In this document: one piece after another, positions 14,301 through 64,000 of the stretch | Layout of the letters: every line of letters starts with the position of its first letter | How positions within the stretch are numbered: position 1 is the stretch's first letter | Assembly (NCBI RefSeq): GCF_003073045.1 | Contig: NC_037595.1 | Coordinates: 13,198,074 to 13,262,073 of the forward strand | Reading direction: 5' to 3' | DNA from: Pomacea canaliculata | Lineage: Eukaryota; Mollusca; Gastropoda; Architaenioglossa; Ampullariidae | DNA length: 64,000 bases | Notes under the pieces: model-generated | What the model saw: the letters and a program-made list of their open reading frames with translations, nothing else | What the model was told of the DNA's origin: nothing | Database searches by the model: none | Translations under genes and position numbers: made by a program

Positions 14301-17300
14301 ATTGAAAAGTATTGGTTAGTGTGTATGATTAGTAATGTGAAGCCAGTGGTTTTATAGTTAGCTTTTTGAATTCTGAAGACCTCATTTTACATATGCTCTC
14401 TCATATCCACTTCTATTGTATATCTTAAATAAATAAACAATCTCAACATAGAAAACAAAAATCACTCCTAAACGCGGAAAATATATTTTGACGAAATAGT
14501 GTTAGAGTTTAAGTTGATTTTTTTTCTTTGACTTAATCAGCAGTGATCCTGAAGTGCGACTAGGAGCCTATTACGGAGAAGCTACAGGCCCCATCCTGAT
14601 GGACAACGTGAATTGCATTGGAAACGAAAGCAACTTGGCGGAGTGTTCGTATAAGGATGGCCACAACTGCGACCACAGCGAGGATGTCGTCGTGGACTGC
14701 ATGCCTTCGTTTGGTGATTTAGCCTTTATTTGATAGCTACTTTGACTTTCAGAGTATCTTTGATGAATTTAGTGTCTCATCTACCTTTGCTTTTATAATC
14801 AACTATACTTGAACAGAATAGCTAATATTTACTTTTTGCAATTTAATCAACACTTAGGCTTATTTGAGTACAGAAAAACGCGCTTGTCCAATCGTTAAGC
14901 AAATAAAATCCTTTCAAACGTGAAGCAAAGGTCACTAACGTTCCCTACACCGACAAACAACTGCCATTGGTCGTGTCATTAACGTGGTACACGTTTACTA
15001 AATGTGCTTTCCTATTGGCTGTAACCTGAGCGCCATCTTCGAATGAGTGGGCAATACTAGAGTTTTTAACCCATTTCCTGATGATAATTGAGTCGAGTAG
15101 ACATCGCTAATCATGCACAGTGGATAAAGCAGATATTTTGAATTGCAGGTCAAACAGTGCGCACGGATTTCCGTATCCGTCTGAAGGGAGGAAATTCTTC
15201 TTGGGAAGGCAGACTGGAGGTGGAGAGATCCGGGAGTGGGGAACAGTGTGCGACGATGGGTTCACCAAGGTGGACGCTATTGTCGTCTGTCGGTCTCTTG
15301 GCTTCAACAGGTTGGCAACTAGTTTAGATCTCTTTGTGGCCCATTAGGTAGTAGAATTCTTTGGTTGATATATATATATTACTAGTAATTTAAAGCTAGT
15401 TTATTATCGGATATAAATTAATGTAACGTACTAGTACGTAATGTTAGACAACTAAAAAAATTAATAGGACAGACAAAGAAATCAGAAAATTAGTATTCTA
15501 CTTGCAAAATTTACATTGTATAACGATAGATATATATGAATATATTGTTTTACATCGGATATATCTCGAAGAATATTCGGTGTATTAAACCCACCATGAT
15601 GTTCGTAACCGTTTATTGTTTGACGATAAACTCTTTTTCGATTTTTTGATGTGTTTGCAGCACCTCGCGTGCTTAAATGTCTTTAAGCTTGTTTGCGTAA
15701 CTAATTACTAAGCTTGTTTTATTTCTATTTTTATCGGTGAACTTGGAAATGATATAATTTGTATTTAATGACATTAAGGGAATTCGGTTACCATATAAGT
15801 TATTGCTCCCTTTTTTGATGACCTAATAATAAACCAACTAGTAAGAGATTCAATAAGCAGACAAATGTGTAATGACTTATTGGTGATCTAAGTTACTTAA
15901 GAGTTGTTTTGAAGTTGCTTCCAAGCTTTTAGTGATTTTAGACTCTCTTTCGTAGAGCTGACGAAGTGTTGTGTCAGAATTTAAATGTAGTTTGCAGAAT
16001 TGTTTTCCTTTACAAGGTTGGTGTTATTTCGTGGATGATATTATGAGATAAATAGTTGAACATATGGAAAGAAGAAAATGTCTATACACACGGTTTGGTA
16101 TCGGTGACGAAGCTTTGTATGAGAATTCAAATATAGGTCACGAAGCTGTTCTCTTTGTCAAAACTAGTCTAATTATATGGCGACACTGTGAAATAAAGAT
16201 TAACTATAGTTTTATAAATTGGCACAAAAGGAGATAAAGAAATCAAACATTATTTAAATATACATTTAGCAAAGTTTCTGAGTTTCGACTTTTTGAGGTC
16301 ACTCGAATTTAAAGGCGCACTTTCAGTATCGATACACTCATACAAAACAACGGTCGTCTGTGGTTTTATTATAATCATAATTCTAACAAGGTGTTCACTG
16401 CATTACAATGAGCTCAATTGCTCCTTTGATTTGAGCAGCAGTGATCCTGTAGTGAGATCAGGAGCCTATTACGGAGAAGCTACAGGCCCCATCCTGATGG
16501 ACAACGTGAACTGCATTGGAAACGAAAGCAACTTGGAGGAGTGTTCGTATAGTGATGGCCACAACTGCGACCACAGCGAGGATGTCGTCGTGGACTGCAT
16601 GCCTTCGTTTGGTGATTATCCTTTATTTGATAGCTACTTTGACTTTCAGCGTATCGTGGATGAATTTAGTGTCTCATCTACACTTGATTTCATCATCAAC
16701 TATACTTGACTAGAATGGGCAATATTCAATTTTTGCTTTAATCAACAGGCTTAATTGAATACAGAAAAACGCGCTTGTCGAATCGCTAGACAAATAAAAT
16801 CCTTTCAAACTCGAAACAAAGGTCACTAACGTTCCCTACACCGACAAACAACTGCCAATAGTCATGTCATTAACGTGGGTACCCGTTTACTAAATGTGCT
16901 TTCCTATTGGCTGTAACCTAAACGACATGTGCGAATTAGCTGGCAACTAGAGTTTTGAACTCTTTTCCTGATGATAATTGAGTCGAGTAGATGTCGCTAA
17001 TCATGCACAGTGGATAAAGCAGATATTTTGATTGCAGGTCCAACACCACGCACGGATTTCCGTGTCCGTCTGAAGGGACGACATTCTTGGGAAGGCAGAC
17101 TGGAGGTGGAGATATCCGGCCAGTGGGGAACTGTGTGCGACGATGGTTTCACCAAGGTGGACGCTATTGTCGCCTGTCGGTCTCTTGGCTTCGACAGGTT
17201 TGCAACTTGTTAATAATTATACTCCCTAAAGTCTATACCTAATTGAAAAGTGCATTGTTTAGTGTGTATGATTAGTAATGTGAAGCAAATGGTTTTATAG

Positions 17301-31824: not shown

Positions 31825-32953
31825 TTAACTTTCATTTCCAGACATTTTAATGACAACAAAACCCAAGAAAGACATACAGCAAAAGAAAAGATTCGTCCAT
31901 ACAAAGACGCCGTCGCGTCCACTTGACTTTCGAGAACCTTCTGATTTCTGGATTTTCTTTGCTTCGTCGTTCACTGTGATATTCGATGCTTGTGGATCTC
32001 GAGATGATCTGGTGTTGTCTGACACAGGCTCGATTTCGGACATCCAGCCACCACGATAATGCGTCGATGAATGTTCGGTATTAAGACCCTCAATGCAATC
32101 TGAAAGAAAGGATGAAATAAAAAGAAACATTTTTGTGAAAGATGTCAAAGTAGTTCTCACCCTCCCCTCATACCTTTCTGGTCAGTCATCTCTGTAAATA
32201 AACATTGTCACTGAGACTGTTCCCAACTACAGGACCCAGCAAACATTTATGGTGCATAACTACCTCTAGGGTAACTATTCCTACTTCATGACAGTATCTC
32301 CAGAAAGGAACTTACCACTACAGTCCTTGCCGTGACATCCGACGGGGCAGGAACACGAGCAGTTTGAGTTGTTGTACACACCACCATTGTAGCAGACCTT
32401 CACGACACATTCCCTGCAGTCAGGGCCCCGTCGGCCCTCCACACATCTTTCACAGAAGCGGCCTTGAGCGAACTCACTGCACGTGCAGCGCGAGCATCGT
32501 CTGTCGTGGGCCTGGCCGCCATTGTGGCACAGGAGGGAGCACGTGTCGGTACACCTTGCACCTGCGACATGAATATTCACTCACAGAAGACTGATATCCA
32601 GGACTTTAACCAGATTCATTTTAGTGTCAGGAAAAAACAGAAAAATGTTTATTTAAGACCAGGATGAAGCGTTTAGTCATCGAAGCCACCGATCTGTGGT
32701 GGGTAGATATTGCACCTTCCTGCGTGTACTACTTTTGTTTAGAAAATTAATGTCTTTAAGTACATCTAGTGATGACTTTTTACATGACACCCTGTAGGAT
32801 AATTATGGAATCGTTAGATAATAAATCATAATTTTATTAACTTTAAATAATTAACCACAAATATGTAATTATGAAACTAACCATAAAAATTTGTTTTACA
32901 CAGACAGCCGCCAAGCCACGGGGTTCCTCCATTGCTACACTTGACAACCGGCA
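31825..32953 (-). other. EGF-like modules and C-terminal membrane segment (exons 21-23)
   Basis: Exon 21 (32882-32953) has KCSNGGTPWLGGCLC. Exon 22 (32316-32561) is cysteine-dense: CHNGGQAHDRRCSRCTCSE, CVEGRRGPDCREC, CYNGGVYNNSNCSCSCP. Exon 23 (31825-32099) is a Ser/Asn-rich stalk followed by a hydrophobic stretch (FVWTNLFFCCMSFLGFVVI) and only seven residues (KMSGNES). Phases agree exactly and no indels are seen. The product is thus predicted to be anchored in the membrane with the protease outside. Confidence 0.82.
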
Positions 32954-45290: not shown

Positions 45291-47477
45291 ATGCTGCCCT
45301 TCCCAGAGTACAGTGCGTGGATCCTCGCGCTGATGATGGTCAGCGGTGAGTAACATTTGGTTTCCAATGACTACAATTAACAGATGGTGCTGGCTGTTTG
45401 TAAGACCCTGCAGGCCATCTGTGTACACGCAGCCATTGCCCGAGGCTAGAGGCTCGAGTCTGTAGCGACACGCCCCGGTGACCCTTGCATGATGTCCTGT
45501 GCGATAAGCTCAGTTTAGACTGGGAATAAGTTTAGTCTTGGATCGTATCATTCGTCTGCACTCAACAGTTTTTATCTTAAATGTGATTGACAATAAAGCA
45601 CGCGTGAAGAAAAAAAAAAACAAAAGACAGCAGATCGTGGAATGATGACGAAAGACACGAAGAGAAAAGGAGTGAGGCCATGAGTGGAGAAAGTGGGTGT
45701 ACGTAGAATGAGAGAGACAGGAAAAGATTGAATCCTTTATTAATTTAGCTTAGCTTCAGCAAAGATGTAAGAATCTGTCACCATAATCAATATTTTTAGA
45801 ACATAATACAATTATAACAACAAGAGTTAAAAAGTTCCATTCACAAATGTAAATACGTGTGAACACATTCTATATATTATCTCGGAAGACATCAACCCGT
45901 ATACACACACAGCCCTAAAATGGATTATAAACAATAGTAATATTATGAACAACGGATATGATAAGAAAAAAGTTTTTCCTCAACAATGCAAACACACAGA
46001 AATTATCGGTAACATATTAATCGCACACACACACACCCTCCCATCCACACACACACAGAGTTACAGACAGATAAAGAGAGGTGGATGCTCATTATATCGC
46101 ATGCATTTTTGTTGTTTATAAGGACTCCACTGCAAGCGAATATCGAAGACAGTGATAATTTCTGAAATGCTTAAATGGGTGGATGCTGAAAAAGCCTGTA
46201 GGACAGAAGGACCGGACTGTCACCTGGCGGTTGGAGAGGGTGAAGAAAGCATCCAGTGGGACACAGTGAGCATCAGTGACAGTCAGCACTGGATTGGTGC
46301 AAAAAGGCAGCGCATCGTAGCTTGGAGAGAATGTTAGTACTTTGCTGCTTTGTCGTACATTCTACACTGAACAAAACTAAGAAGGCTCTATAGATGGTCG
46401 ATGAATTAATTTGTTGATTTTTTTATTCGCACAGTTAATAATAATTATAAAAATAATTTGTACAAACTATTTTCAGCTTTGTAGACCATAATTTTTTATG
46501 ATTATTTATCCCATCATTCATTGATTCTTTAGTGCAGCCTCTTTGTTTAGCACAGGAAATCATTCATTGTTTTTCACGGGAAATGATTGGTGATTGACAT
46601 AATTATTCCATCAGCCACTCACTCCGATCCTCGATGACCTGTGCTCGTCTCCTGCCTCGTCGGATGGACTAGCAAACGATATAGTAAATGTTTAAATGTT
46701 AAGAATATAAAATTATTGATGAGGTTATTTTCTTTATTCAGCTGGAAGACCATTGTTTAAGGCAACTGGCTGCTATAGGACCTCGACTAGTCTCGGCAAT
46801 GGTCGCACATTACCTCAAAACAACCCGGATGAGTGTTTTCAAACATGCAGGACGCAGTTTGTAGCTCTACAAGTAAGTGACTATATCTTGCCGGGAAAAT
46901 GTTTGTATTGAAGTGGTAAATATGTAATGAATAAAGATAATTTGGTAGGGAGTCATTAGAATTTATTTTAATCAGATTATGAGTTGGAGAGAAAAGACAG
47001 AATGATATCAAGATGGCTCCTACTCAGCCTACCTGTCTGCCGGAACCATCCAGACCAGGTAATTAATTACACAGAAAAACAGATTAAGAGAAGGCAAGAA
47101 GATGAAAAAATAACAAAAAAAAACAAAACAAAAACAGTTGGGGTTGCGAATAATTGAGAGATGGAGGCAAAATCTGATCACAGAGAAGGAGTGAGAATTT
47201 CACATCTTCATGCTGTAGCACTAACTGTAGGGAGTTGTCTCCCTCTACATATCGTCGAATGTTGTAAAAACATTTCAACTTCCGCATTCTTGTCTTTCTG
47301 TCTCATCAGAACTCAACGTGCTGGTGTGTGTCTTCTGCCGTCAAGTCGAGCTGGTGTCGTCTGAACACTGCTACTTGAAGTGTGCTGATACTCAATGTTT
47401 CTATTTTGGAGGAGTCGAGGCGCTTTCAGTATATGGTGAATATCAACTGACTTGACCATTAAAAACTACAAAGAACA

Positions 47478-47547
<70 letters not shown>

Positions 47548-50500
47548 TGATGATTGGTAATTGACTCTGATCAACGTTTACTAACAGCACAACACCATGA
47601 AAATCATTATCAGTGAAGTTTTTGTTTACAGAGCTCCCTGCAAGAACTGTCTTCATCGGGAGCAATCCCGGTGAAAATTTCTACTGGAGGCTAGACGAAG
47701 AAAAAATTTTGTGATAAGCAAAACTTCTTCCAAAAAAATCAACCGCTTGTGTGGTGAGTGAGAAGTGTCATGATTAGTTTTACTTGCTGGTAAATAATTA
47801 TATACCATATAAACTAATTACTGCGATGTAAATTGTCTCGTGCACGCTGATGTATTCTTGCTTATGTACGTTTGTTAATTGCTCGTGCCGCTAGCTCCTC
47901 CTTGGTGGTGTTTTTCCGTACTAGAATTTGTTTCATTCGTGAGTGAAATGTACTTTCTACAGAATTTTTTTATATATCAAAATAGGGACTATTTTAAATC
48001 AGTTGATATTCAGTATTTGATATTTACACAAAGTATGAATATTTTTCGTATGATTGTGGTCAGTTTATTTTCTGAAATATGCACTTGCCTGCTTAAAATC
48101 AACCCAACACTATAAGTAGGTGAAGCGATTTAATATACAGTATGTTTTGAGGAAACATAGGAATTGATATATCAAATATGAATGTTATTTCAAAACTATA
48201 AAAGGCAATGCAGTTTTAATTTTTTGATCTCTCGATGTTTCCTACAGTGTATGGGACAGGAGAATATCGAAGTAGAAAGTCGACTTGTCCAGGGGGAATT
48301 AAAGAAGTAACACTTGAAGAAGGCACTGACATGGACGAGCTTCTACAAGCTGTGTCACCATGACAGAAGCGTCGGACGGCTTCTTTCTAAATGTGACCAC
48401 TCGCGGTTTCTTCTGGATAAATAGTAAGTAACTCAACACTAACATGGTGTGTGGTTGTGTGGTCAGCACTGATATAACATAGCTGAATGGTCATTTCTTT
48501 GATATAAATCTGGATAACCTTTATTTGAGCTAAGTCACCATTGGGTTAAGTAAGTTAGTGTCGAAAATGGAGTTAACGGATGCAAAAAGGTCCATGTTAT
48601 CAGAATAATAGTCACTTCTCCAGTCCCAAAATACTTTTTTTTACAGTAAAGCAGAGAAAAGATGACAATGATGAAAGACGACGACGAAGGCGATAATAAT
48701 GATAATGACGACGACGATTCAAGAAAGATTCACATCATTATCGATGGCAATGAGACTTCCGATAGTAAAAAAAATTTGAAAGACGATGCTATGGTTCATA
48801 GTTTCACAAGATTTGCCTATGTTTTTCCCCAAAGGGCTCCCCTGGAAAGTGTGAATGGAAGTGGAGGAGGCTGTGTGTCGCTGTCAAAAGTGAACGACAA
48901 GTACATGATGAAGAAACAAAATTGCAGTAAAGCAAAGCTACCCAGCATTTGTTCCTGCTTCACAGGTAATTCTTTGTCCTATAGTAGTTAATGAGCAGTG
49001 AACTATATTTTTCTTACTGTTTGTGATTTAGGGAGCTGAATTCTGAGCAACTATTACTTGATGACATCAGTCATAACATTAAAAATATTTTTTTTGGTTT
49101 GCTATCATGTTTTCTTGGACTTAATAAGTTTTTTCTTGTCTCAAGAAATTAAATCCATAGAACTGATCCAACCCCACACTTGCAGCGGTTACCTTTAGCA
49201 GACACTCTACGGCTTTGAAGAATATTATTGTTTTCTTTTTTTTTTTTTCCTTGATGTAGAGCGCACTGAGCTGTTGACTTCCGAGGTAACAACTTTAAGA
49301 ACCACATCCGTGACGCAATCGACAGAGCTCATCACGCATGCGTTGACGACAGAAACAGTAACGGAAAAGTCTTCTACCATTGCAACAGGTAGGACCACAG
49401 TATGAGGAGAATCGTCCGGCCTGACATCAGTTCCTTCATCTTCATGCTTCGATCGTTTAAATTGAGCGTTTGAGCTAAGGAACTAGAAATATATAATAAG
49501 CCTTGAAATCTAAGGCTATATTTTATTTTTCATTTCAAGTCAAATACTCCATTATTAGAAGTGTGTGTGTGATTGTTTGACAATAATATATTCATATAAT
49601 GAAATTGAAACTATGCACGCTAGCTCAACCAGACATACAGAGAGAAGACAGACAAACACACGCTATAAACAGGTGCCAGCGGATAAAAAGAATTTCCAGT
49701 GGGATTCTCCTCCTACCACTGTTATCCATGTTCTCACTGCAGAGACATCTACTGCCACACTGTTGACCCTCGTGAACTTCACTAGCTGCTCCCAGTTAGA
49801 AGGAAACAACGAGAGCGGAAGTAGGAGGATCACGTGGCCATGTGGAACACAACCTGCTCCAGCTCTGGGAAGCAAGCGTAGAGACCCGGCTGTAGAACCA
49901 TCGAATAATTTAACAGGTAAGAAAAAGAGAACAAGGATGACTTCCACATTTTCTGAAATAATTTTCCGAAGTTACATTGCACAACCAAACATTTGAATGT
50001 TATAAGGGAGTGGCGTACAGGTGAGGGGTGAGTAAGATGTCATTGACCATACCCTTTGATCTTTGGGTGCGGATTTCTAGTCTTGTATCTTGTTTCTCCG
50101 GATGTCACCTGTCACTTTTTGCTCCTTCGCATGCATACTAGTTACTAGTCATAGATAAACATGATATTACTTTCGCTTTAATATTCACTACACTGCTGTG
50201 TGTGGGGAGGTTTTAAAATATTTCTTTTTCGTCCTCACTCGTTGGACATCATTGCCAGATGATAGAAATGTTTTCGCTTGTAGTCACCACACATATCACT
50301 GTTCTCAACCATCTATACAACTGCTCTCATTCTGTTCAAGCCATCATCGCAGCAGCTGCAGCTGGAGGTGTTGTACTAATTGTTGCTGTTGTGGTAACTA
50401 TTTACTTGACGACTTGCAGGTAAGTTCATCGTACCTTCTAGAACAGTTGGAGCAAACGTGCAATGAGTCAAGATGATGTGATGAGAGTTATGGTAGTAGT

Positions 50501-50726
50501 TCAACGTGCCTATGTACACAAGTGTGTATGTGTGTGTGTACGTGCACGACGACTGTAGGTATCTACGAATTTCATTATTCTAGCATGTATTTTTAAATAC
50601 CTATATTTATATATATTTAGTTTGATGTATTTATGTTTGATTCATTAATCTATCCTGTTTTATTTCAGGTCTAAAAATTCAATCATCCAGAGGGACAAGT
50701 ATGGTCGTGTTCAGTATCCCATCTAA
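45291..50726 (+). CDS. Receptor A: CTLD-WSC-lectin-like type I membrane protein, short tail
   Basis: Exons: 45291-45345 (signal peptide MLPFPEYSAWILALMMVS), 46125-46334 or close (lectin-like: KWVDAEKACRTEG, HLAVGEGEES, HWIGAKRQ), 46742-46872 and 47310-47435 (WSC: TGCYRTST, ECFQTC, NSTCWC, SEHCYLKC, FYFGGVEALSVY), 47632-47753, 48248-48423, 48647-48965 (second lectin-like region ending SGGGCVSLSKVND and PSICSC), 49260-49388 and 49743-49916 (Thr/Ser-rich stalk), 50259-50419 (TM: AAAAAGGVVLIVAVVVTIYL), 50669-50726 (tail). Most exons are phase 1 at both ends. WSC and lectin folds bind carbohydrate. The 19-residue tail holds KYGRVQYPI. One-base indels are inferred in the second WSC exon, the three following exons and the TM exon. 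Ligand and function are unknown. Confidence 0.8.
47478..47554. repeat. (GAT)n(GAC)n microsatellite
   Basis: Pure trinucleotide run in a receptor A intron; it gives a Val/Ile-only minus-strand open frame that is not a gene. Confidence 0.97.
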
Positions 50727-51976
50727 AAACTATTCTTCACGAGCTGTGTAAGCACGGAAAACACTACTATAAGTACTGAACTAAACATCAACATGTCCTT
50801 AGTGCCTGGTGTCCACAGCCGCAGGACTACGAGTGAAAATGTGGCTGAAATGATAACAAATATTGTGCAGCAGATACCAACAGAACAACATTGTTACACA
50901 GATAGTAATAGAACTGTGTACATCGACTCTCCACTATAGAATTTTTGTTTTTATATCTAGAGATCGGTTGAGACAAGTCTTGGTTTTCACGTGATTATAG
51001 ACTGGCAGGAGATGCTCTTTATATGTACAAACAAGTAGAAGTGTTACTGAACGGTCAGAAAGTTAATTGTGTCTCTGCAAAAACTGTGTATAAAGTTACA
51101 TCTTGCGCATATGTTTATTTACCAGAAGTTGGATAACAATATTTATAAATACATGGTCTTTATTTTGTTTTCTTCTGTGTGTGTGCATGCGCGCTCTCGT
51201 GGTTAAATAAATAAACAAAGGGTAACAGCCAGCTACGTGAATCACTTGGCGGAAAATAATGAAGTTTTATTATTTATAGTAATAAATTGCTATATTGTTA
51301 TCTAATACTAAAAAATGTATAAACAGCTCTCGACATTCATGAGCATAACCACAAAACACGCATACATATATGTTTACAAAGAGCTGTTAGTAATTGTGTC
51401 TATGAACATATGTTCATATTGATGATAGATATCAACAATGTTTTCTATATAATAATTCTACATCCTCATATCAATAAATCCGCGTACATGGGTACTATGC
51501 CCATACAACAAGAGCACATAGCATACATCTATCCACCAGTCTACATAGGCATAGTGAGCAACACACCAGCACCCACCCGCCCTCAGCCACCCACCCAGAG
51601 AGACGCACACACTGACAGCAAAACCCAGACAAGGAAGCAGAGACATGGCTAAGTGGACAACCTATCCACTGGGTACAAAACATGTTTACAAGTGGTGTCC
51701 GTGTACAATCGTTTGGCGTGAAACATCCTCAGTACTTGACAACAACACGTGTTTAATATGCTGACTGAAAGTAGACTAGGCTGTGCCGTGCTTCCGCACC
51801 GGAAGTGACGTGCGTGGATGCGCGGGCGATAAGCAGCAGGAAGCTGGACGGTGCAAGGGCCACAAGTGAATGCTTTAGTTGTGAAGACACGACCTGCGAG
51901 TCTTTCGACACAACTGCTGGCGACATCCTACACAGCGGACATCAGTGAGGAGACACTCATCACGACGATTTGTGTG
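50727..51976 (+). other. Receptor A 3' untranslated region and spacer to receptor B
   Basis: AT-rich 3' untranslated sequence up to the AATAAA at 51206, then about 770 bases without recognised genes. The last 250 bases before 51977 are CG-richer and probably hold the receptor B promoter. Confidence 0.5.
51206..51211 (+). promoter_or_regulatory. Polyadenylation signal of receptor A
   Basis: Overlapping AATAAA hexamers about 480 bases after the receptor A stop codon. Confidence 0.55.
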
Positions 51977-54900
51977 ATGTTGATTCTGACACTCAGCCTT
52001 CTTTTCCTCTACACATCGGGTAACGATGAGCAAATTTTACTTGTCAAAATCGTCTGAATGTTTCATTTGATGTATCAGAATAATCGTTGTCTAAACACAA
52101 GTTGTGATCACTTTCAGAGGACACTAGTCTCGAATAAAGTTATATATATATAGTGAATTGTAAAATGGGATATAAACTTTCTTAATGAAAAAAAAATATC
52201 AACCTTTCCAACACACGCGAAAAGCCATGCTAAATATGTAATGAGAGTTTCCTGTCGACAGAATGTTACAAAACTTATGTAACACCGAACATGACCTGGA
52301 CCGAGGCCTTTACTCACTGCAGACAGAAATATTCTGGGAGACTTGCTACCACCTCGGCTTTAGAGTGGAGAGAAAGAGGAACACAACCTGGTCTGCCACT
52401 GAACACCTGGGTGTGGGTTGGGGCAGTGTATCTAGACAGTCACACGTGGAGCCCCTACGGAGGTAATGTACACAAGATGTTAGACACAACAACAAGTTAG
52501 GAACCTCCGTGTTTGGAAAAGTGGGTAAACAGATATTACTACTCTATTAAGTCCTTTTAGAAGGACGATTACACAGATTTTGGTTAATTTAGACATCCTA
52601 TCTATGCTATGTTGTTACCAATTCTTTGACAGGATCATTGTATTATCCACAACGGAAGCTAAACAATTCTAAAGTTATTCCTTACGATACACAACTCCTA
52701 AAGGAAGATCTCTTGGTATTAGACGAAAACATGTCCAAAGAGAGTTTTAATGCGAGGAGAAAAGACCATTAGAAGCAAAGTTTCCTAATCAGTTATTAAT
52801 TACCATATTCTGTCAGGAAGTAAAACAGATCTCTTAGAGTATACTGGATGCTATGAAGTGTCCGACTTTCAAGAAGCACATCAGTACGAGAACGTGAAGG
52901 GTCCCCCCGAGTGTTACAGGAGGTGCGGTCGACAACATCCCGGAGGGCATATGTATTTAAAAGTGAGGTTTCTATCACATTTTAGACATAATTATTGAAT
53001 GACATTTGAGAAAATCTCTTATTTTAATTCTTTCTGGGAGCATGCTTTATATAATCTATTGACTGTTATGATAGACACAATGTTCTGTGAGATTTAGGAA
53101 GTTCTCATCGTTCATAAATGTAACACCACCTTTATATTTCAAGTACATGTACTTAAAAAATGACGACAAAAGTTAATGACTGGCGGTTTATAACTTTGCA
53201 GGGTACAGACTGTTACTGCTTACCCTCCAGTCAACTACCGGACACACGTTTCAGAGTGGACTCCCGGAAGTGTGACGTCATCTGCCAGAAAACTTTCCAT
53301 TGGTGTGGAGGCGACGAGAATTTCTACTCCGTCTACTGCAAGTATTCCACCCACCAATAAGTTTAGCATGAATGAGTGTTGACAGGATATAGATATTGAC
53401 TTATGAGAACTTTTACATGTACAACACTTGACATGGAGATTTATCACACGTTATATGTACAGTACTATACATCATACACTTGCTATACACTTGCTAATGT
53501 TCTCTCTCCAACGACATCGACATCCACCACCTCAGAATGATTAGAAGTACAAACTGCTTCGGACACGCTGTAGTTACAGTCGTGTTATTATTTTAGCATA
53601 ATAAAGAAACCTGCATGATCACAAATTAGCTCAGTTTTTAAAAGATTACCCGAGATTCTTTTTTGTTATTTCAGCTGTTTCTCATAGTCTCAGGATCGAT
53701 GATGATGCCTCCTGGGACGGTCCATGTTTTCAGGGAAAATTCAATGAGTCGGACGATAAAGAATGGACTCTCCACATCACAAGCACCAACTGTAACGAGA
53801 CAAAAACAGCAGTTTGTGGTATGTATTATGTTAAGTTAGTTGTCGTCAGGTCATGACTAGCCTTTTCTTTATTCTTTTTAATGCTTTCATCTTTCTCCTT
53901 TTTTCTTTTTCTCTTCTTTCTTCATAAGTTCTTCTTTTTTCTTTACAGACTTTTCGAGTTCCTCATCCAGCTGCTTATAAAAGATTCTTTAAATATTATT
54001 ATTTAGTTCATGGTTACATGGACGTGGCTGCATTATTCTTTCATTCTGTACTGGGATACTCTGCTTCCGGTTGACCTACTCAAGCTCAGGCGCTGTCAGA
54101 CTTTACAATCACTTTCTCCATGTTGAGCAAAACACGACTCAAGGCAGGACATGCACTCGACTTACTGAATGTGTCGTCTTTACTAGCTGCAGTGTCTCAT
54201 GTATCCACACAGTCATGGGTGAATGATCTTTTCACCCTGTTTGTTGCAATTTTCCATAAGAAAACAGTGTCCTTGTTCTGCTTGAGTTGTTGTGATATTA
54301 GAAAAAATAATCACTTTCACTGGTTTGAAGAAAGGAGCGTCACGAGGCAGTCCCTATGTTATTAACGAATGTGAACATTTTACTAGAAACAATAACCCTG
54401 AGGTGTCTCCATCGAGTGCTAATTGAAAGATGCTTTGCCAATTGTTTGTTTCAGTTTTCCAAAACAAAACGGTTTCTTTATTAGGCGATTCGTCATTCCA
54501 AATAGTGTCCGACTACTGTAAGTCACTGAACAGTTCTCTTCCCTTGAGGTTCGACTCAGTGTCCAGCGAGTCGCTTGACTTCAGCAGCTACAGGAATAAT
54601 GTGTCTGGGGGACTAAGTGTCCTATACAGAAGCTTCTGGCTGAATTTGAATCTCTCAAAGTCTCCATACTGGATTGATGGTAAAAATACACTGTTCATTA
54701 TTTCACATATACACGCATGAAGGAGTAAACACACACACACAAGAGAAAGAAGAATAAAAAGTGTGACGGAGATAATAGTAGGAGAGAGCGACAAAGCTCG
54801 AAGTGTGATAACATGCTAACTCCTGAGGTCGCATGTTGGCTGTGAACTCATGTATTATCATTTTGTTTGAAAATAATGAAAACCGTGATTTATCTGTATG

Positions 54901-56913
54901 TAAAGTTTATCACGACAAACCATTGTCATTGCTACATGGCATAATCATTTAATATTCTCTCAGGCAAACCGTTCACGGAGCCAAACATTACAAGGACAAC
55001 TGCCAGGTGTGTCGCCATGAGAGCCCCGAGCAATGTATCGATGACTTTTTATGCCACACCTTGTCGCATGAGTCTTCCCGCCTTGTGTTCAGGTAAACAG
55101 ACATTTTCCTCCAAATATTGAAAACTGGAAATTTCATTTTAAAAGATATATTTTTCAAAACACTTTACATTTGTATAATAGAATCCAGAGCTTATATGAC
55201 CACAGGGGCAGTGAGTTGTAAACAGTTGAGTAGAGACTTACTAGGCGTAAAACTCAAACAACCAACTATTGAGCTTATTACAAAGAACACTATCTTGAGC
55301 CGTTGGTTGGCCCGTTTGTTGATTTGCTTTGGTGTGATTTCGCTCCTCTGAACGGAAAGTTAAGAAAATCACAAAAAGTTCCGCGAGTCCCTTTCCCGAT
55401 GTCCCAGCCTCGTGAACAAAGAGATGTACACGTGGTCCAGGACGAAGTCTTATCCGGGGACTTTACAGTCCTCGATGTCATGGTGACAAGTGAGTATTCT
55501 TACAATACTAGTAATAATCAGAGCCAAAACAATACACATTTTCTTTTGTTTGTTTTGGGAGCAGGTCAAGAGCGCAACAAAGGAGAAGGACCAGGTAACT
55601 CGATCAGCATCAATCGTTCTCCCTTTCTTTCTTGTTCTTTCTCTCCATTTTTTTCGTTCCCAGTCATTCTGTTTCTGTGATTGAATGGTCCGATAATACT
55701 GCCTTCGCCGCTCTACTTCCCAGCCTTGTGTCAGTATTTTAGCAGTGCATGTATGTAGGTTTCTAGCAGTTGATACTATTTTCTAGACTTCTGTGTCAGC
55801 CTTAAGACCTAGGGGCTATTTTCAGTACTAATAATTGGAAGAAAACTAGTAAAAGAAAGTTTCATACCACACACACTGTTGAAATGTTTAAAGTTGTAGG
55901 ACTTGCCATCATCGCCGCGGCGATTGGAGCTGGAGTCTTGGTCGTCTTCTGTCTGGTGGCGGTGCTGCTGGTGTGCTTGAGAAGGTAAGAACAGAAAGAA
56001 GTAGTGTTACCAGCTTCATGGGGAAAAAACATCTACGAACTGTAGTCTCTATGTCCTTCTTTCCGTCCTATTTTATACACGAGGGCCCTGATATATATAT
56101 ACACACACACAAGGGGAAAATGGAAACATTATCAATTCTTTACTGATGTGTGTTTCTCTCAGTTACATTGATGTGTCAGAGGAACAGACAGTATAGTTCT
56201 TTTATTTCATTATCTATTATGTCTGCTATGTGCTTTTGATAAATATAACTGACAGAAGCTTTACACTGAAGTTTGCTCTCGTATTTTTTGTCAATACATC
56301 ATTACAATAAATGTATCCTTATTTTTCGTTATTTTATGTCTACTTTTGTCCCCCTTTCCACGTTTTAATCTTTACATTCCGGGTGGTCTTAACTCTCAAC
56401 ACTAGACATGGAAAACTACGAACCAGCAGAGCTCGACGCACAGACTCGTACAAAAGTTCGTCACGGAACAGTGATGTCACCTCAAGCGAGCAGCCAGGAC
56501 CCGCGCGAGGGCAAAGGTCAGACACAAGCGCCGAGGTCACCATCGAGACGAGTTACATGCTCGCCAATGAACTTTCTTCCTCCCCTTGTGATGCACAATA
56601 CTCGTACGTCACCCACTCGCTCCAACACAGTTACACAAATCAGAAAGACCTCGGACGGTCAGACACTGGTCATGTCCTCTTGACCCCCCGTCACGAGGAG
56701 AGCGCAGAGATGTACTCCTACACCTACGTGGACATTGTGGACAAAGACACAAAAGACAGCAGAGGTCTCTGTCAGCCCTCAACAGCCACGTACACCAACT
56801 CTCGGATGCTGGCTTCATCGGGAGGGATCGGTCCTCAGGACCCTGACCTGTCTTTGCAGGGTGACACAGCTGAGTCCCCCCGTGAGTACTTGTATGCCAG
56901 AGTCTATAAATAG
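51977..56913 (+). CDS. Receptor B: CTLD-WSC-CTLD type I membrane protein, long Tyr-rich tail
   Basis: Exons: 51977-52019 (signal peptide MLILTLSLLFLYTS), 52262-52462 (lectin-like: MTWTEAFTHCRQKYSGRLAT, TWVWVGAVYLD), 52817-52962 and 53202-53341 (WSC: TGCYEVSD, ECYRRC, GTDCYC, KCDVICQKT), 53675-53818 (module ending TKTAVC), 54455-54679 and 54964-55092 (second CTLD: SDYCKSLNSSLPL, FWLNLNL, RCVAM, TPCRMSLPALC), probable stalk exons ending 55490 and 55565-55594, 55900-55984 (TM: GLAIIAAAIGAGVLVVFCLV), 56406-56913 (tail of 169 residues). Nearly all phases agree; only the end of 53202-53341 is off by one. The tail has YSYV, YTYV, YVDI and a terminal YLYARVYK, which suit SH2 or adaptor binding. Paralogous to receptor A, 1.25 kb upstream in the same orientation. 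Confidence 0.85.
54238..54290 (+). pseudogene. Relic of a duplicated lectin exon start
   Basis: FVAIFHKKTVSLFCLS here parallels FVSVFQNKTVSLLGDSS at the beginning of the true exon 54455, including the preceding TGTTTGTT. The copy lacks an AG acceptor and diverges quickly, so it looks like a decayed exon duplication within the intron. Confidence 0.55.
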
Positions 56914-59031: not shown

Positions 59032-60239
59032 ATGGCTATCCTCGTGATGCTGACTGTCACCATGAGCCTCATCCTCCACTCCACTGGTAAAGCGGGTAAA
59101 TATCAACATAATTAGGAAATATCATCTTGATCTTCCCTCCAACGCTCATTGTGTATTAATAAATTAATATGTGTAACACTTGGCGGATCTTGCGTTGAGT
59201 ACAGCGATCCATGCTAGTTCTGACTCGTTAATGTCTTATAATGGAAGGCTAAGGACACTTTATGGTCAATCTTCACGTGGAATCATTGACCATTCTCTCT
59301 TCCAGTGTTAAGCAGATGCTGCTAAATCTTTAAACTTCTTGTCCATGCTGCATTCATTTCGACCACACACTACCTGGATAATCACAAACATTCAGTCGCT
59401 ATGGTTCGTTAGTTTCTAGTAAAAGGCGGGTTTTGACATTTTTCTTTAATTTGTTAACGAAATTTTGATAAACCTCGCCCGTCTTTAAAGACTTACTTCC
59501 TGTTCACAGCAAGATTAGACAGGCTGAGTTCCGGATTGACCTCAGCTTGCCTTTATCTTGGATAGCAATCATGCGTGTCTGCTGTAGATTGTAGATAGAC
59601 ATGGTGACAATGGTGACCGGTACCACAGTGACTAAAACTATCTTTCAGGGGACCTTAGAGGAGATGGAGTTCCAGTAAACTCTTACAACACACGGGAAAA
59701 AACCATAGTAAATATTAGAAGAGTTTTCTGTCCACAGTGTCGTAACGACACATCTTACGTAGAAGCGAACATGACATGGAGCGAGGCCTTTACATTCTGC
59801 AGACAGAATAATTCTGGGAGACTTACTACTTTCACGACTGCAGAAATGGAATAGAGAAAAGAAAGGACACCCATGACCTGATCTGCCAAATCTTAACATC
59901 ATGTCGTGGTCTGCAACGCACCGTGTATCTAGAGAGCTCACACCTTGAAGTCCTTGTCCGAGGCTCAATTCTTATGAGCAGAGAAAAAACATCTAAGCGA
60001 CAAATATGGTCATGAAATTATGTCGACCACAAGCATCGTCCAAGAAATGAAACTTTCATGCGTCATGAAAGCCCAATCTAACACGCTTAACCCACAAGTT
60101 CATCTTTATCGCGGCAATTTTGTCAATTAGAAACGCGCCTGACATTATATTCTGCAGGAAATGGACTGACCGCGATCTCCATCTAATAAGGTATATTGGT
60201 TGTTATGACACGTACCCAGACATTCGCAGAACAACTCTC

Positions 60240-62400
60240 AAGGTCCAGGTACTTGAGCCATAGAGGTTGTTTACCCCCCGCCCAACACACCACGCGTCCT
60301 ATCCTCCCCTATCCCCTCGATGCCCACGAATCGACCTACGCTCATCATAAGGAACGTGCACGTGCGTGCCAACAACATCCGCGCTCTGAGGCCATACTGT
60401 ATTAAAACGTGAGTCTTCTCTATACATTTTAGTACATAAAGATATTAACTGAACGTCTTAAGAACGTATATATATCCTTACCCTGCTCCCTTGTCAGTGA
60501 ATCACTGGCGATCTTATCAACATACATTCGATCCCGTTTTTTAGTAAGTACAAACGATATCTATTTTTCTAGGTTTGGACGAGCTTTTCCCCAGTTTTTT
60601 AATAGACTCTCGTACATAGCTACCCAATTCTACTACTAAATATGGTTGGTTTTTATACCCATAACTCCGCGCAGCGAAATGCGAGGAACAGATAGCATAT
60701 ACAGACTATGCATACTTCCTAAGACAATACCGAACTCGACAACAGCCTCCCTGACCATATCACCCGATTGTCCCAGGGCGACTAACTGCATCCGTCAGTG
60801 CTTACGCCGCTGCGCGTGTACCCCTCAATCAAATACACACCAGACTCATATCCCATTCTAGAGCCGAGTCCCCGCGCCCATAGTGTAGTAGAACGATAAT
60901 CCTGCCAAGGAAAAAGCTTTCTCATATTGCGACCCACTCGCTGAGAGGAGCATGAGCATTGAACTCCTGTCGATTATGGTCAAGTTTTCGCATGTGAACA
61001 AATCACATTTAACTCTGCAAGTTTCGAGTCAGACGAACATCATAGGTCTTCGACCTCTATACTCTAGATGACAGGAATTCCATGAATTAGTTTTTTGTCT
61101 TCAATTTAACTGGATTCCTTTGAGAGTTTGTTACAACAAAAGTTCTTAAGCAGAACCATTCTGCTAGAACGGAATACAGAGTTTCATCCACTATAACCAT
61201 CTCATCACACTAAAACTTTTACACAAATTGACACTTTCTCCACTATTTCCCATTTCAGCTCTCGTCTCGCTAGCTCTCATTAAATCAACACCCAGGAGAG
61301 TCGTGGGAAAGATGTCCGTGTTCTTGGCCCGCAACGATTCAAATGAGTCTTTGAGGAGCAACAACAGACCGCGGACTTCCACATCTAACAAACTCCGAGT
61401 TGTTGAGAGCGAATGGAACTGGCTTTCTGTCGGTCACCTATTGGCTTTAAACGGCGATCTTCTCTGCACGTTGACGCCCGATTCACGTCCGTAACAGCGC
61501 TTACGCGCCGGTCACCCAATACACGTGTCGGCCGTTGAGGCTGCTTCCCTAGATCTCGCCTCGGGTCACCTAACCCCAAATTAAATCTCCTCCACACAAC
61601 CTCACGGGCCCAGAGCTATTCCCACAACCCACCACATCCTACAGCCCCGGCCACAATCGGCCCACTAGAACATGACTCCAGTATCTCGCATACCTCAGCA
61701 ATCCATACCTTGTCAATCCCCCATACGCGCACCAATCGACCTAACGCCAGGTAAGGTCAAGGCCATTACCCAAACTCGGCAACAAAATCAATCACCACTA
61801 CTCACATCCCACACCCTTAGGCGTGGTACGAACCCACGTCTCCTCCACACCAACCTCCCACGTTTCACCACCTGCACGCCGCACACCTAGGCACAATCTG
61901 CATTCACCAGTCACTCGATCCACATCACCAAGATCAGTCGCGCGAGGTGCCCGTCCATTCTCTGTCAGCCTTCCTACCCGTCTGTAACTATCTCCGTCTC
62001 AACCCCGACATCCAGAGCACTCCGATACCAACCCCATCTCACCCCACAGCCTGTCATCCGCAACTCGGCCACCATAGCAAACAACCCCCTGCTATACATC
62101 CGCACACACTTCCCGCACCGACACACCCCCATCGAACCACTCGCTCCGCACGCATACTGAATAGAGCCAAGATCAACTTAGCACTAGACCCACATACTGA
62201 CGCCACTTAAAGTGGAACATACATAACCTCGCTCGCCATTACACAAGCCAATTCAACACTGCTCACTGTCCAATCCACAATCATAAAGACCAGGCGCCCA
62301 CCGCAACGGCCCCCTCACCACATCATCACATCAACCCGCGCCTCTCGATCCACTTCAGCGCTTTGACACTAACACCACCACTTGTTTGTTCTGAAGCTTG
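60240..62400. other. Strand-asymmetric C-rich stretch
   Basis: Unlike the rest of the window, this stretch is rich in C and poor in G on the plus strand, with many CCA, ACC and CCC words and little homopolymer T. Apart from scattered receptor C matches I see no coding or repeat structure that explains it. Confidence 0.5.
61480..61570 (+). mobile_element. Possible third, heavily altered SINE copy
   Basis: GCGCCGGTCACCCAATACAC and later TCTCGCCTCGGGTCA resemble GCGCCTGTCACCAATACAC and TCTCGTCTCGGGCA of the complete SINE, in the same order and spacing but with extra bases. Confidence 0.3.
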
Positions 62401-64000
62401 GCTCCTTTGACTTACAGCGTGGCTGCCGCCTATATCCGGCTCTTTTCTGCTGAATAACACACAAGCACTAGCTTTTATGCCAAACCAAGTTAGTAGCCTC
62501 GCTCCTAGCGGGGTAGCGATCTGTGCTAACTTCGGTCTGTTAGCATAGGTCAGTGACAAGTTGTTCCTCTATAAATCAAGTGCTTCTTTTTTTAGCATAC
62601 GACGACGTATCCGCGTAGATGATCATCGCACTGCTATCAAGGCTACTCCTGGTCTGATGCTGAAAAGTCTGCTTATGCGATAGGCTTATGCTTACAAGCC
62701 CATACACATCCCATCTGGTTCCACCCTGGCTGCATAGCCAAGTCCCAATTCATTGCTATTAACTAAGTGCTTCGCTTGAATTTACTAGACATACCCAGTT
62801 GTCACAACCTCCTGTCGACTACGGTTAGTTCTGTCTACGTCCAGTGACTGAACTTTGAAATGATGTTTTTGCTTCCTATTTGTTCCCAGCCGTACTATTT
62901 CCACGAAGACGGCAAAGACCCAGTTTTCGTGTTGCCCCTCATCTTTCAACATAGGTTGCTCCCGCTCCTGTGAGTCTAACTGAACAGCCTTCCCTGGACG
63001 TTTAGATCAGTGTCCGGTGAGTCGGCCTGACTCCGCCGAACTACAGGACTAATGGCTGTACTGGCAGCATCAGCTCTTCAAGCCCAACCAGTTCCGATTT
63101 TGGACCACTCTTGCGAAGCTTCCGATTTATCCCAGGTACATCTTGATCGCCACTGAACTTAAAAATCGCTCCGAGTCTCCCAACTGGATTGACGGTAGAG
63201 CGCCAGTCAGATTGATCACCGTCAGGTATGCCACTTCATTGACTTCACTATACACGTATTGATACGCACCAGCGCACAGCCCCTCACTATCTTGACTGCT
63301 ACTGTAGTACATCGTACACACCAGATCGGTAACCCACACTACACACACACGTGAGAGAACTCATGAGACAACTAATCAAGTTGCTGACAGAATATACTAA
63401 TTTAGACTATACGACTGAGCACAGCAAAGCGATCACCAGCTTCACGGGTAAATCAAGCATACTCATGATCGCGCCTGCTCAGCGTCAACTTCTTAGACAG
63501 GTCGCAATGCTTACGAGCTTCGCTGAACTTCCAATGGCTCTGTATACGATTTATTCATATCTTATTTTCGCACAAAATAAATTCAAATAAATAATGTGAA
63601 TCGATGCTTATCTCGTCGGCGGCGTCAGTGTGCAATTATTGTATCATCGGCTACACATATATTCAGCATCACTTCAACGATCTCTTGATACCTTTCTCCT
63701 CATAGGCGATACAACGTTACACAGAGGGCCCAGTCCGCCTTCTCACTCCAAAGCACAGACTTGCAACGGGAGCGCTGTGCCATGCGACCAATACCACGAC
63801 GCAACACCAAGTGTCGTGACTTTTCACTGTCACACCACTTCACCGCTCGTGGGGCATATCATTCATAGCCTTCTCGTAACCTTGTGCTGTCAGGTAAACA
63901 CTACGTATCGATGTCGTACTCTTGGCAAAAAACACGCCCAAAACAAAAACAAACAATACCCGCCGGGAAAGCAGCGCTGAAATTGTCAATGCAAAACAAA

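Follow-up and report, generated by a model that had tools for sequence, protein, structure and literature searches.

Where a WSC domain sits in relation to the C-type-lectin-like domains (CTLDs) of the same protein, between two of them or inside one, is the question raised by a tandem gene cluster in the gastropod Pomacea canaliculata. The cluster was studied in a stretch of 64,000 nucleotides, hereafter the window, taken from the forward strand of contig NC_037595.1 (NCBI RefSeq assembly GCF_003073045.1, positions 13,198,074 to 13,262,073), and the genes of the cluster lie on that strand, with positions numbered from the first letter of the window. A first-pass annotation, made from the letters and their open reading frames, had described a pair of receptor genes, here gene 1 (45291-50727) and gene 2 (51977-56913), in which a WSC domain stands between two lectin-like units. 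The spliced frame of gene 2 and profile tests support the proposed family of type I receptors built from WSC and CTLD modules. It is further suggested, with chances that we judge evenly balanced, that the WSC domain was inserted by exon shuffling into a phase-1 intron of the first lectin domain (CTLD1) and would then be nested within it rather than lie between lectins.

An intact receptor gene

Gene 2 was modelled with 12 exons which after splicing give a single open frame of 582 codons, and all 11 introns as modelled follow the GT-AG rule. The gene starts with a start codon and a short hydrophobic signal peptide of 14 codons (exon 1, 51977-52019, ending in phase 1), there being no further in-frame ATG between the upstream stop and 51977. 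Then follow the first half of a CTLD (exon 2, 52262-52462, phase 1-1), a WSC domain with nine cysteines and a phase-0 intron between its two exons (exons 3 and 4, 52817-52962 and 53202-53341), a 44-residue exon with three cysteines in the layout C-x21-C-x7-C, which is the candidate second half of CTLD1 (exon 5, 53688-53818), and a second lectin domain, CTLD2, with four cysteines and an EPN triplet (exons 6 and 7, 54455-54679 and 54964-55092, each phase 1-1). The remainder consists of a stalk (exons 8 to 10, 55182-55210, 55408-55489 and 55565-55594), a single transmembrane helix recognised by eye as a hydrophobic run followed by basic residues (exon 11, 55900-55984) and a tyrosine-rich cytoplasmic tail of 168 residues and 12 tyrosines (exon 12, 56406-56913). 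The exon order, the identity of the WSC domain and of CTLD2, the first half of CTLD1, the one membrane span and the tandem copies can be read directly from the sequence, and they support the prediction that gene 2 encodes a type I membrane receptor combining WSC and CTLD modules.

The splice sites were picked by eye and by phase in a model made without transcripts, so it could be argued that modules from separate genes have been wrongly joined. This is very improbable considering that 582 codons run in one frame through 12 exons of compatible phases, with a signal peptide at one end and a membrane helix at the other, and that gene 1 shows the same order. One site calls for comment: the GT donor of intron 4 (after 53341) is weak, and a GC donor four bases earlier, after 53337, keeps the frame when used together with an acceptor before 53675 and makes exon 5 a phase 1-1 exon. 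The earlier statement that most exons are phase 1-1 fails under both models, as this applies to four of the ten internal exons as modelled (2, 6, 7 and 10) and to five of ten with the GC donor.

The WSC domain

When searched alone against Pfam the WSC exons of gene 2 matched the WSC family (PF01822) along the whole profile (positions 1-82 of 82) with 19.6 bits and an E-value of 0.0011, which misses the curated cut-off of 27.8 bits, and within the full protein the score fell to 9.2 bits (E 1.9). Neither of the two protein forms of gene 1 that were searched gave any WSC match in Pfam. A failure of profiles to recover WSC in the exons at 46742-47435 and 52817-53341 had been named beforehand as grounds against the domain, and with Pfam half of such a failure was seen, gene 2 staying under the threshold and gene 1 giving nothing. 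The claim itself held with two other methods in both genes. A local model trained on eight WSC sequences from the snail's own genome, two of them partial, gave 32.0 bits for gene 2 against at most 9.0 among 500 shuffled sequences, and 19.2 bits for gene 1 (with an X at the frame break) against at most 9.3 among 500. Profile-profile alignment with hhalign, setting the WSCs of genes 1 and 2 (gene 1 again with X) against the eight genomic ones, returned a probability of 96.7% and an E-value of 4e-10.

A blind six-frame scan was run over 264 kb, made up of the window and two flanks of 100 kb each, with a second WSC- and CTLD-containing locus of the genome (C4:24.348-24.365 Mb, described below) scanned alongside. 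Here exon 3 of gene 1 alone reached 10.8 bits for WSC, under one unrelated local match at 12.4. Sequence searches with the WSC against the PDB gave no match worth keeping and a search of NCBIfam gave nothing relevant. By eye, eight of the nine cysteines in gene 2 stand at WSC positions, and eight conserved cysteines are what a passage of PMC13094651 gives for WSC domains. Judged by its sequence, the WSC of gene 2 is homologous to recognised WSC domains, though divergent. In both genes the phase-0 intron interrupts the domain at the identical position (GTDCYC follows it in gene 2, NSTCWC in gene 1), and this shared position supports a common descent of the two.

The lectin modules

CTLD2 of gene 2 carries the cysteines C1 to C4, four in all, and is recognised by the Pfam Lectin_C profile with 28.5 bits (E 2.7e-6), above the cut-off of 22.6 bits. 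Its second half, exon 7, outscored every shuffled sequence in a set of 1000 and in a set of 2000, and was the top local match with both models of CTLD second halves in the blind scans. The corresponding exon of gene 1 was equalled by one shuffle in 1000 and by none in 2000; with the snail-enriched second-half model it ranked second among 8388 rows, and with the first model it scored 7.1 bits, amid noise. In gene 1 a CTLD2 is predicted from exon 7 only.

The first lectin-like unit, described in the first-pass annotation as a compact lectin-like exon, turned out to be half a CTLD. Exon 2 of gene 2 alone has no match in Pfam, and exon 2 of gene 1 matches Lectin_C under the cut-off (15.5 bits, profile positions 3-52 of 107). 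When exon 2 of gene 2 is joined to the second half of CTLD2 (exon 7) the score is 25.0 bits, above the cut-off. In the blind scan for CTLD first halves the three best local matches were exon 2 of gene 2, of a third gene copy described below (gene 3) and of gene 1, with 18.4, 15.1 and 12.5 bits. Locally they were followed by a match with 11.0 bits, and the exons of the cluster were outscored by two CTLDs of the C4 locus, one of these two CTLDs having been a training row. On the ranking in the blind scan and the 25.0-bit join to exon 7, exon 2 of gene 2 is to be regarded as the first half of a CTLD. The PDB sequence search gave weak matches only, for example to E-selectin with CTLD1 (E 0.26) and to echicetin with CTLD2 (E 0.15), and an uninformative search of gene 1 exon 2 against a phage collection gave no match.

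Sugar-binding CTLDs that depend on Ca2+ combine an EPN or QPD triplet with an acidic residue ahead of C2 and with ND ahead of C3. In CTLD2 of gene 2 the EPN is kept, and by eye there is neither ED before C2 nor ND before C3, leaving the motif set incomplete; both the acidic residue and the ND are common among the snail CTLDs compared. Of the 16 second-half matches listed, 13 have EPN and one QPD, and exon 5 of gene 2 has neither triplet by eye. The EPN motif is mentioned for sugar-binding CTLDs in a passage of PMC514892. Lacking both of these, CTLD2 of gene 2 is unlikely to form a canonical calcium site. Carbohydrate recognition, put forward earlier as the natural inference, therefore keeps the EPN in its favour and is weaker than stated.

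Position of the WSC domain

The earlier description of a WSC between two lectin-like units is correct as a linear order, with the restriction that the first unit consists of the first half of a CTLD. A fold present by half calls for its complement, and exon 5, which follows the WSC, may complete CTLD1, in which case the WSC would be nested and not placed between lectins. When comparing the two lectin units of gene 2, exons 2 and 6 were found by eye to end in phase 1 at equivalent points (W-S-P-Y-G and W-I-D-G). Of the four cysteines of CTLD2 one falls in exon 6 and the others in exon 7; leaving Cys16 aside, the split CTLD1 would show the same division, with Cys34 in exon 2 and three more in exon 5. 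In both exon 5 and exon 7 the final pair of cysteines is 8 apart. Placing three cysteines at random in 44 residues meets the limits set for this layout in 60 of 13244 cases. Joined to the first half of CTLD2, which alone has no match, exon 5 gives 16.9 bits with Lectin_C, under the cut-off and for a join that stands without shuffle control. Gene 1 repeats both the exon order of gene 2 and its intron position within the WSC, which we count in favour of nesting. A second half of CTLD1 in exon 5 is suggested by the cysteine layout, the profile evidence being weak.

Several observations weigh against this. The layout limits were chosen with exon 5 already seen, and a tighter range for the C2-C3 spacing, 13-18, which was also counted, would be failed by exon 5 itself, whose spacing is 22 against 14-18 as read in the CTLDs compared. 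With plain shuffles of exon 5, 57 of 1000 and then, with two models, 115 and 73 of 2000 scored as well as the real exon, and with the cysteines fixed the numbers were 158 and 97 of 2000; in the blind second-half scan it took rank 50 of 8388 rows. Exons 2 and 5 joined gave 11.4 bits in Pfam, compared with 14.5 for one of four joins with shuffled exon 5. With the alternative GC donor of intron 4 Cys176 is lost, so that the ectodomain would have an odd number of cysteines. The WSC domains of genes 1 and 2 are 26% identical, and no DNA similarity between the two genes could be detected. The Pfam score of exons 2 and 5 as a proof of nesting was rejected on the one higher control, the other three shuffled joins giving no Lectin_C match; a single control with a shuffled first half gave no match in Pfam.

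The WSC might instead not be nested at all, exon 2 being an orphan CTLD half, exon 5 a linker and CTLD2 the only whole lectin fold. We regard this as possible though rather doubtful. Exon 5 is not recognised as a CTLD half by profiles, and its counterpart in gene 1 gave no CTLD signal with the CTLD-half models. At the C4 locus one CTLD, identified by profile or PDB match, has both halves on one side of a WSC, a second seems by eye to be equally unsplit, and the other loci of the genome gave no nested case. If exon 2 were a lone first half, however, Cys34 would lack the cysteine with which it usually pairs and exon 5 would be left with an odd number of cysteines, and the retention of exon 2 and of the exon order in gene 1 would be odd for a useless half domain.

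Gene 1, a third copy and the quality of the assembly

The equal module content of the tandem pair was borne out as far as the order is concerned, which is the same in both genes, and not for the reading frames. Gene 1 consists of a signal-peptide exon (45291-45345), a CTLD1 first half (46123-46332), two WSC exons (46742-46872 and 47310-47435), a counterpart of gene 2 exon 5 (approximately 47632-47750), two CTLD2 exons (about 48248-48427 and 48811-48965) and, by eye, stalk exons, a transmembrane exon (about 50284-50419) and a short tail (together approximately 49260-50727). As bounded, exons 5 and 6 are interrupted by stops in each of the three frames. In exon 4 one frame is open, reachable from exon 3 via another donor four bases on, and the stretch matching gene 2 (STCWC compared with TDCYC) sits in another frame, so homology places a frame change inside the exon. 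The remaining exons are open.

The count of two genes missed a third copy, gene 3, which runs from about 59032 past the end of the window at 64000 to about 65615 in window numbering. It comprises a signal-peptide exon found by eye (about 59032-59086), the CTLD1 first half from about 59753 that was picked up in the blind scan, with 61% identity across 31 residues, traces of CTLD2 near 62965-63200 by DNA similarity (74% across 93 bases), a transmembrane exon at 64676, beyond the window end, and a tail open for 196 codons. By eye its frame is lost within exon 2. A possible fourth copy, indicated by a protein match at 32763, was rejected as a chance match with neither DNA similarity nor exon context. 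Within the 264 kb examined the cluster appears to be a small, old tandem family of three copies, the third of which is partly garbled.

Across about 4 kb within gene 3 (60000-64000) the GC skew is negative throughout, down to -0.47, and normal again near 64.0 kb; the CpG ratio is raised over most of the same stretch and reading frames are lost. On account of the skew and the lost frames this region looks like an unpolished patch of the assembly. According to a passage of PMC6129957, the genome was assembled from PacBio reads with smartdenovo and single-base errors were corrected with Illumina reads. Given this procedure and the odd composition, assembly errors are a live alternative to decay.

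The closed exons 5 and 6 and the frame change in exon 4 of gene 1, together with the frame lost in exon 2 of gene 3, could mean that both are decayed copies and gene 2 the sole working receptor, so that no functional pair exists; we hold this to be a little short of an even chance. Against it, the other exons of gene 1 are open, the tail of gene 3 is open for 196 codons and the composition at about 60-64 kb suggests an unpolished patch. The copy in gene 1 may be decayed, or may contain assembly errors.

Further upstream, about 29 kb before the receptors, an open frame on the forward strand at 16293-16709 contains by eye an SRCR-like stretch that includes VDC.

The cytoplasmic tail and a proposed mechanism

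YxN is the preference of SH2 domains of the Grb2 type. In the tail of gene 2 two of the 12 tyrosines are found in YxN (chance probability P 0.03), and in that of gene 3 two of four (P 0.04); with such chance probabilities the excess is suggestive only. Scanning the tail of gene 2 gave no match to an ITIM ((I/V/L/S)xYxx(I/L/V)), to YxxM or to NPxY. The tail of gene 1 is short and, by eye, without YxN.

Nesting, ligand type and signalling are parts of the explanation that we infer. In the ectodomain a two-exon WSC separates what would be two half-exons of one CTLD, and a complete CTLD, a stalk and the membrane helix come after. Both CTLDs would originally have had a phase-1 intron in common, located at the G after a conserved W, at the start of the long loop. 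A WSC unit would have entered this intron in CTLD1, and the loop of a CTLD would thereby display the WSC. Binding of a ligand at the WSC/CTLD head could then cluster the receptors and lead to phosphorylation of tyrosines in the tail, and the phosphorylated tails, long and with YxN in genes 2 and 3, may recruit SH2 adaptors of the Grb2 type. The explanation as a whole, with CTLD1 split around the WSC, CTLD2, one membrane helix and a YxN signalling tail, is the one we favour and give about half of our confidence.

Relatives in the genome and in other animals

Genome-wide family searches gave at least 17 matches for WSC and at least 143 for CTLD (150 of 360 candidates scored). The exons of this cluster were not among the matches of either search, and as they went unlisted, equally divergent WSC and CTLD exons can escape it as well. 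At three further loci of the genome WSC and CTLD adjoin on one strand, their co-occurrence in one gene being a candidate.

The first locus (C3:40.304-40.314 Mb) resembles the cluster in having a WSC and CTLDs on one strand within one 10-kb stretch. It differs in that the WSC comes first, followed by six matches to CTLD first halves with 12.5 to 41.5 bits, and we take the locus (C3:40304500-40314499) to be a mannose-receptor-like CTLD array with a WSC at its start. The C4 locus is alike in having an alternation CTLD-WSC-CTLD-WSC on one strand, the complete order at C4:24.35 Mb being WSC, WSC, CTLD, WSC, CTLD, WSC, CTLD first half, WSC and, by eye, several sushi-like repeats. The difference is that one CTLD has both its halves before the next WSC, the second seems by eye to have them too, and the third shows a first half only. 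Within this locus (C4:24348054-24365000) a short module 'C..LY..G....G.Y' seems to recur and one CTLD second half appears frame-shifted. The third locus, at C3:18.34 Mb, has a WSC and then a CTLD first half, and is presumably polycystin-like. A tandem cluster of CTLD genes, parts of which lie at C10:21203000-21212999 and C10:21227000-21232999, shows by eye CTLDs split over three exons, the last starting near the EPN loop; as a nested relative it was rejected on this three-exon structure and for having no convincing WSC.

Outside the snail, Kremen is an animal single-pass protein in which WSC occurs together with Kringle and CUB. Gene 2 shares with it the WSC and the single membrane pass, whereas Kringle and CUB were not reported for gene 2 in the Pfam search. 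The polycystin-1 and SpREJ proteins are similar in that WSC and CTLD occur within one family: as listed in passages of PMC1934368, WSC is present in SpREJ6, 7 and 10 and human PKD1, and CTLD in SpREJ1-3, PKD1 and PKD1L2. The same paper describes these proteins as having PKD repeats, REJ, GPS and PLAT domains and between 1 and 11 membrane segments, in contrast to gene 2, whose 582-residue model has no Pfam match to PKD, REJ, GPS or PLAT at E-values up to 10 and has one membrane span. The same domain combination is found in bivalves, where a passage of PMC10140915 names WSC as an extra domain in unique architectures of CTLD proteins, a likeness in domain content.

The combination of WSC and CTLD is not unique to this cluster, and the arrangement here is a variant of it. 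The order had been called unfamiliar, which does not make the combination unknown, given the three loci and the bivalve survey. For the nested variant no description of a WSC inside a CTLD was recognised in the open-access literature, judged mainly from titles and the openings of abstracts.

If the WSC is not nested, the cluster is another molluscan mosaic receptor of CTLD and WSC, useful mainly as an annotated example and as a warning about assembly quality. If the nesting is true, a PAN/Apple-type domain would be shown from inside a CTLD, at the intron dividing the fold in its ligand-binding loop, on a tandem-duplicated signalling receptor, a recognition head built as a domain within a domain. 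It would mean that the variable loop of a CTLD can take up a complete folded domain via a phase-1 intron, and animals that have no adaptive immunity would thus gain new surfaces for recognition by a direct route.

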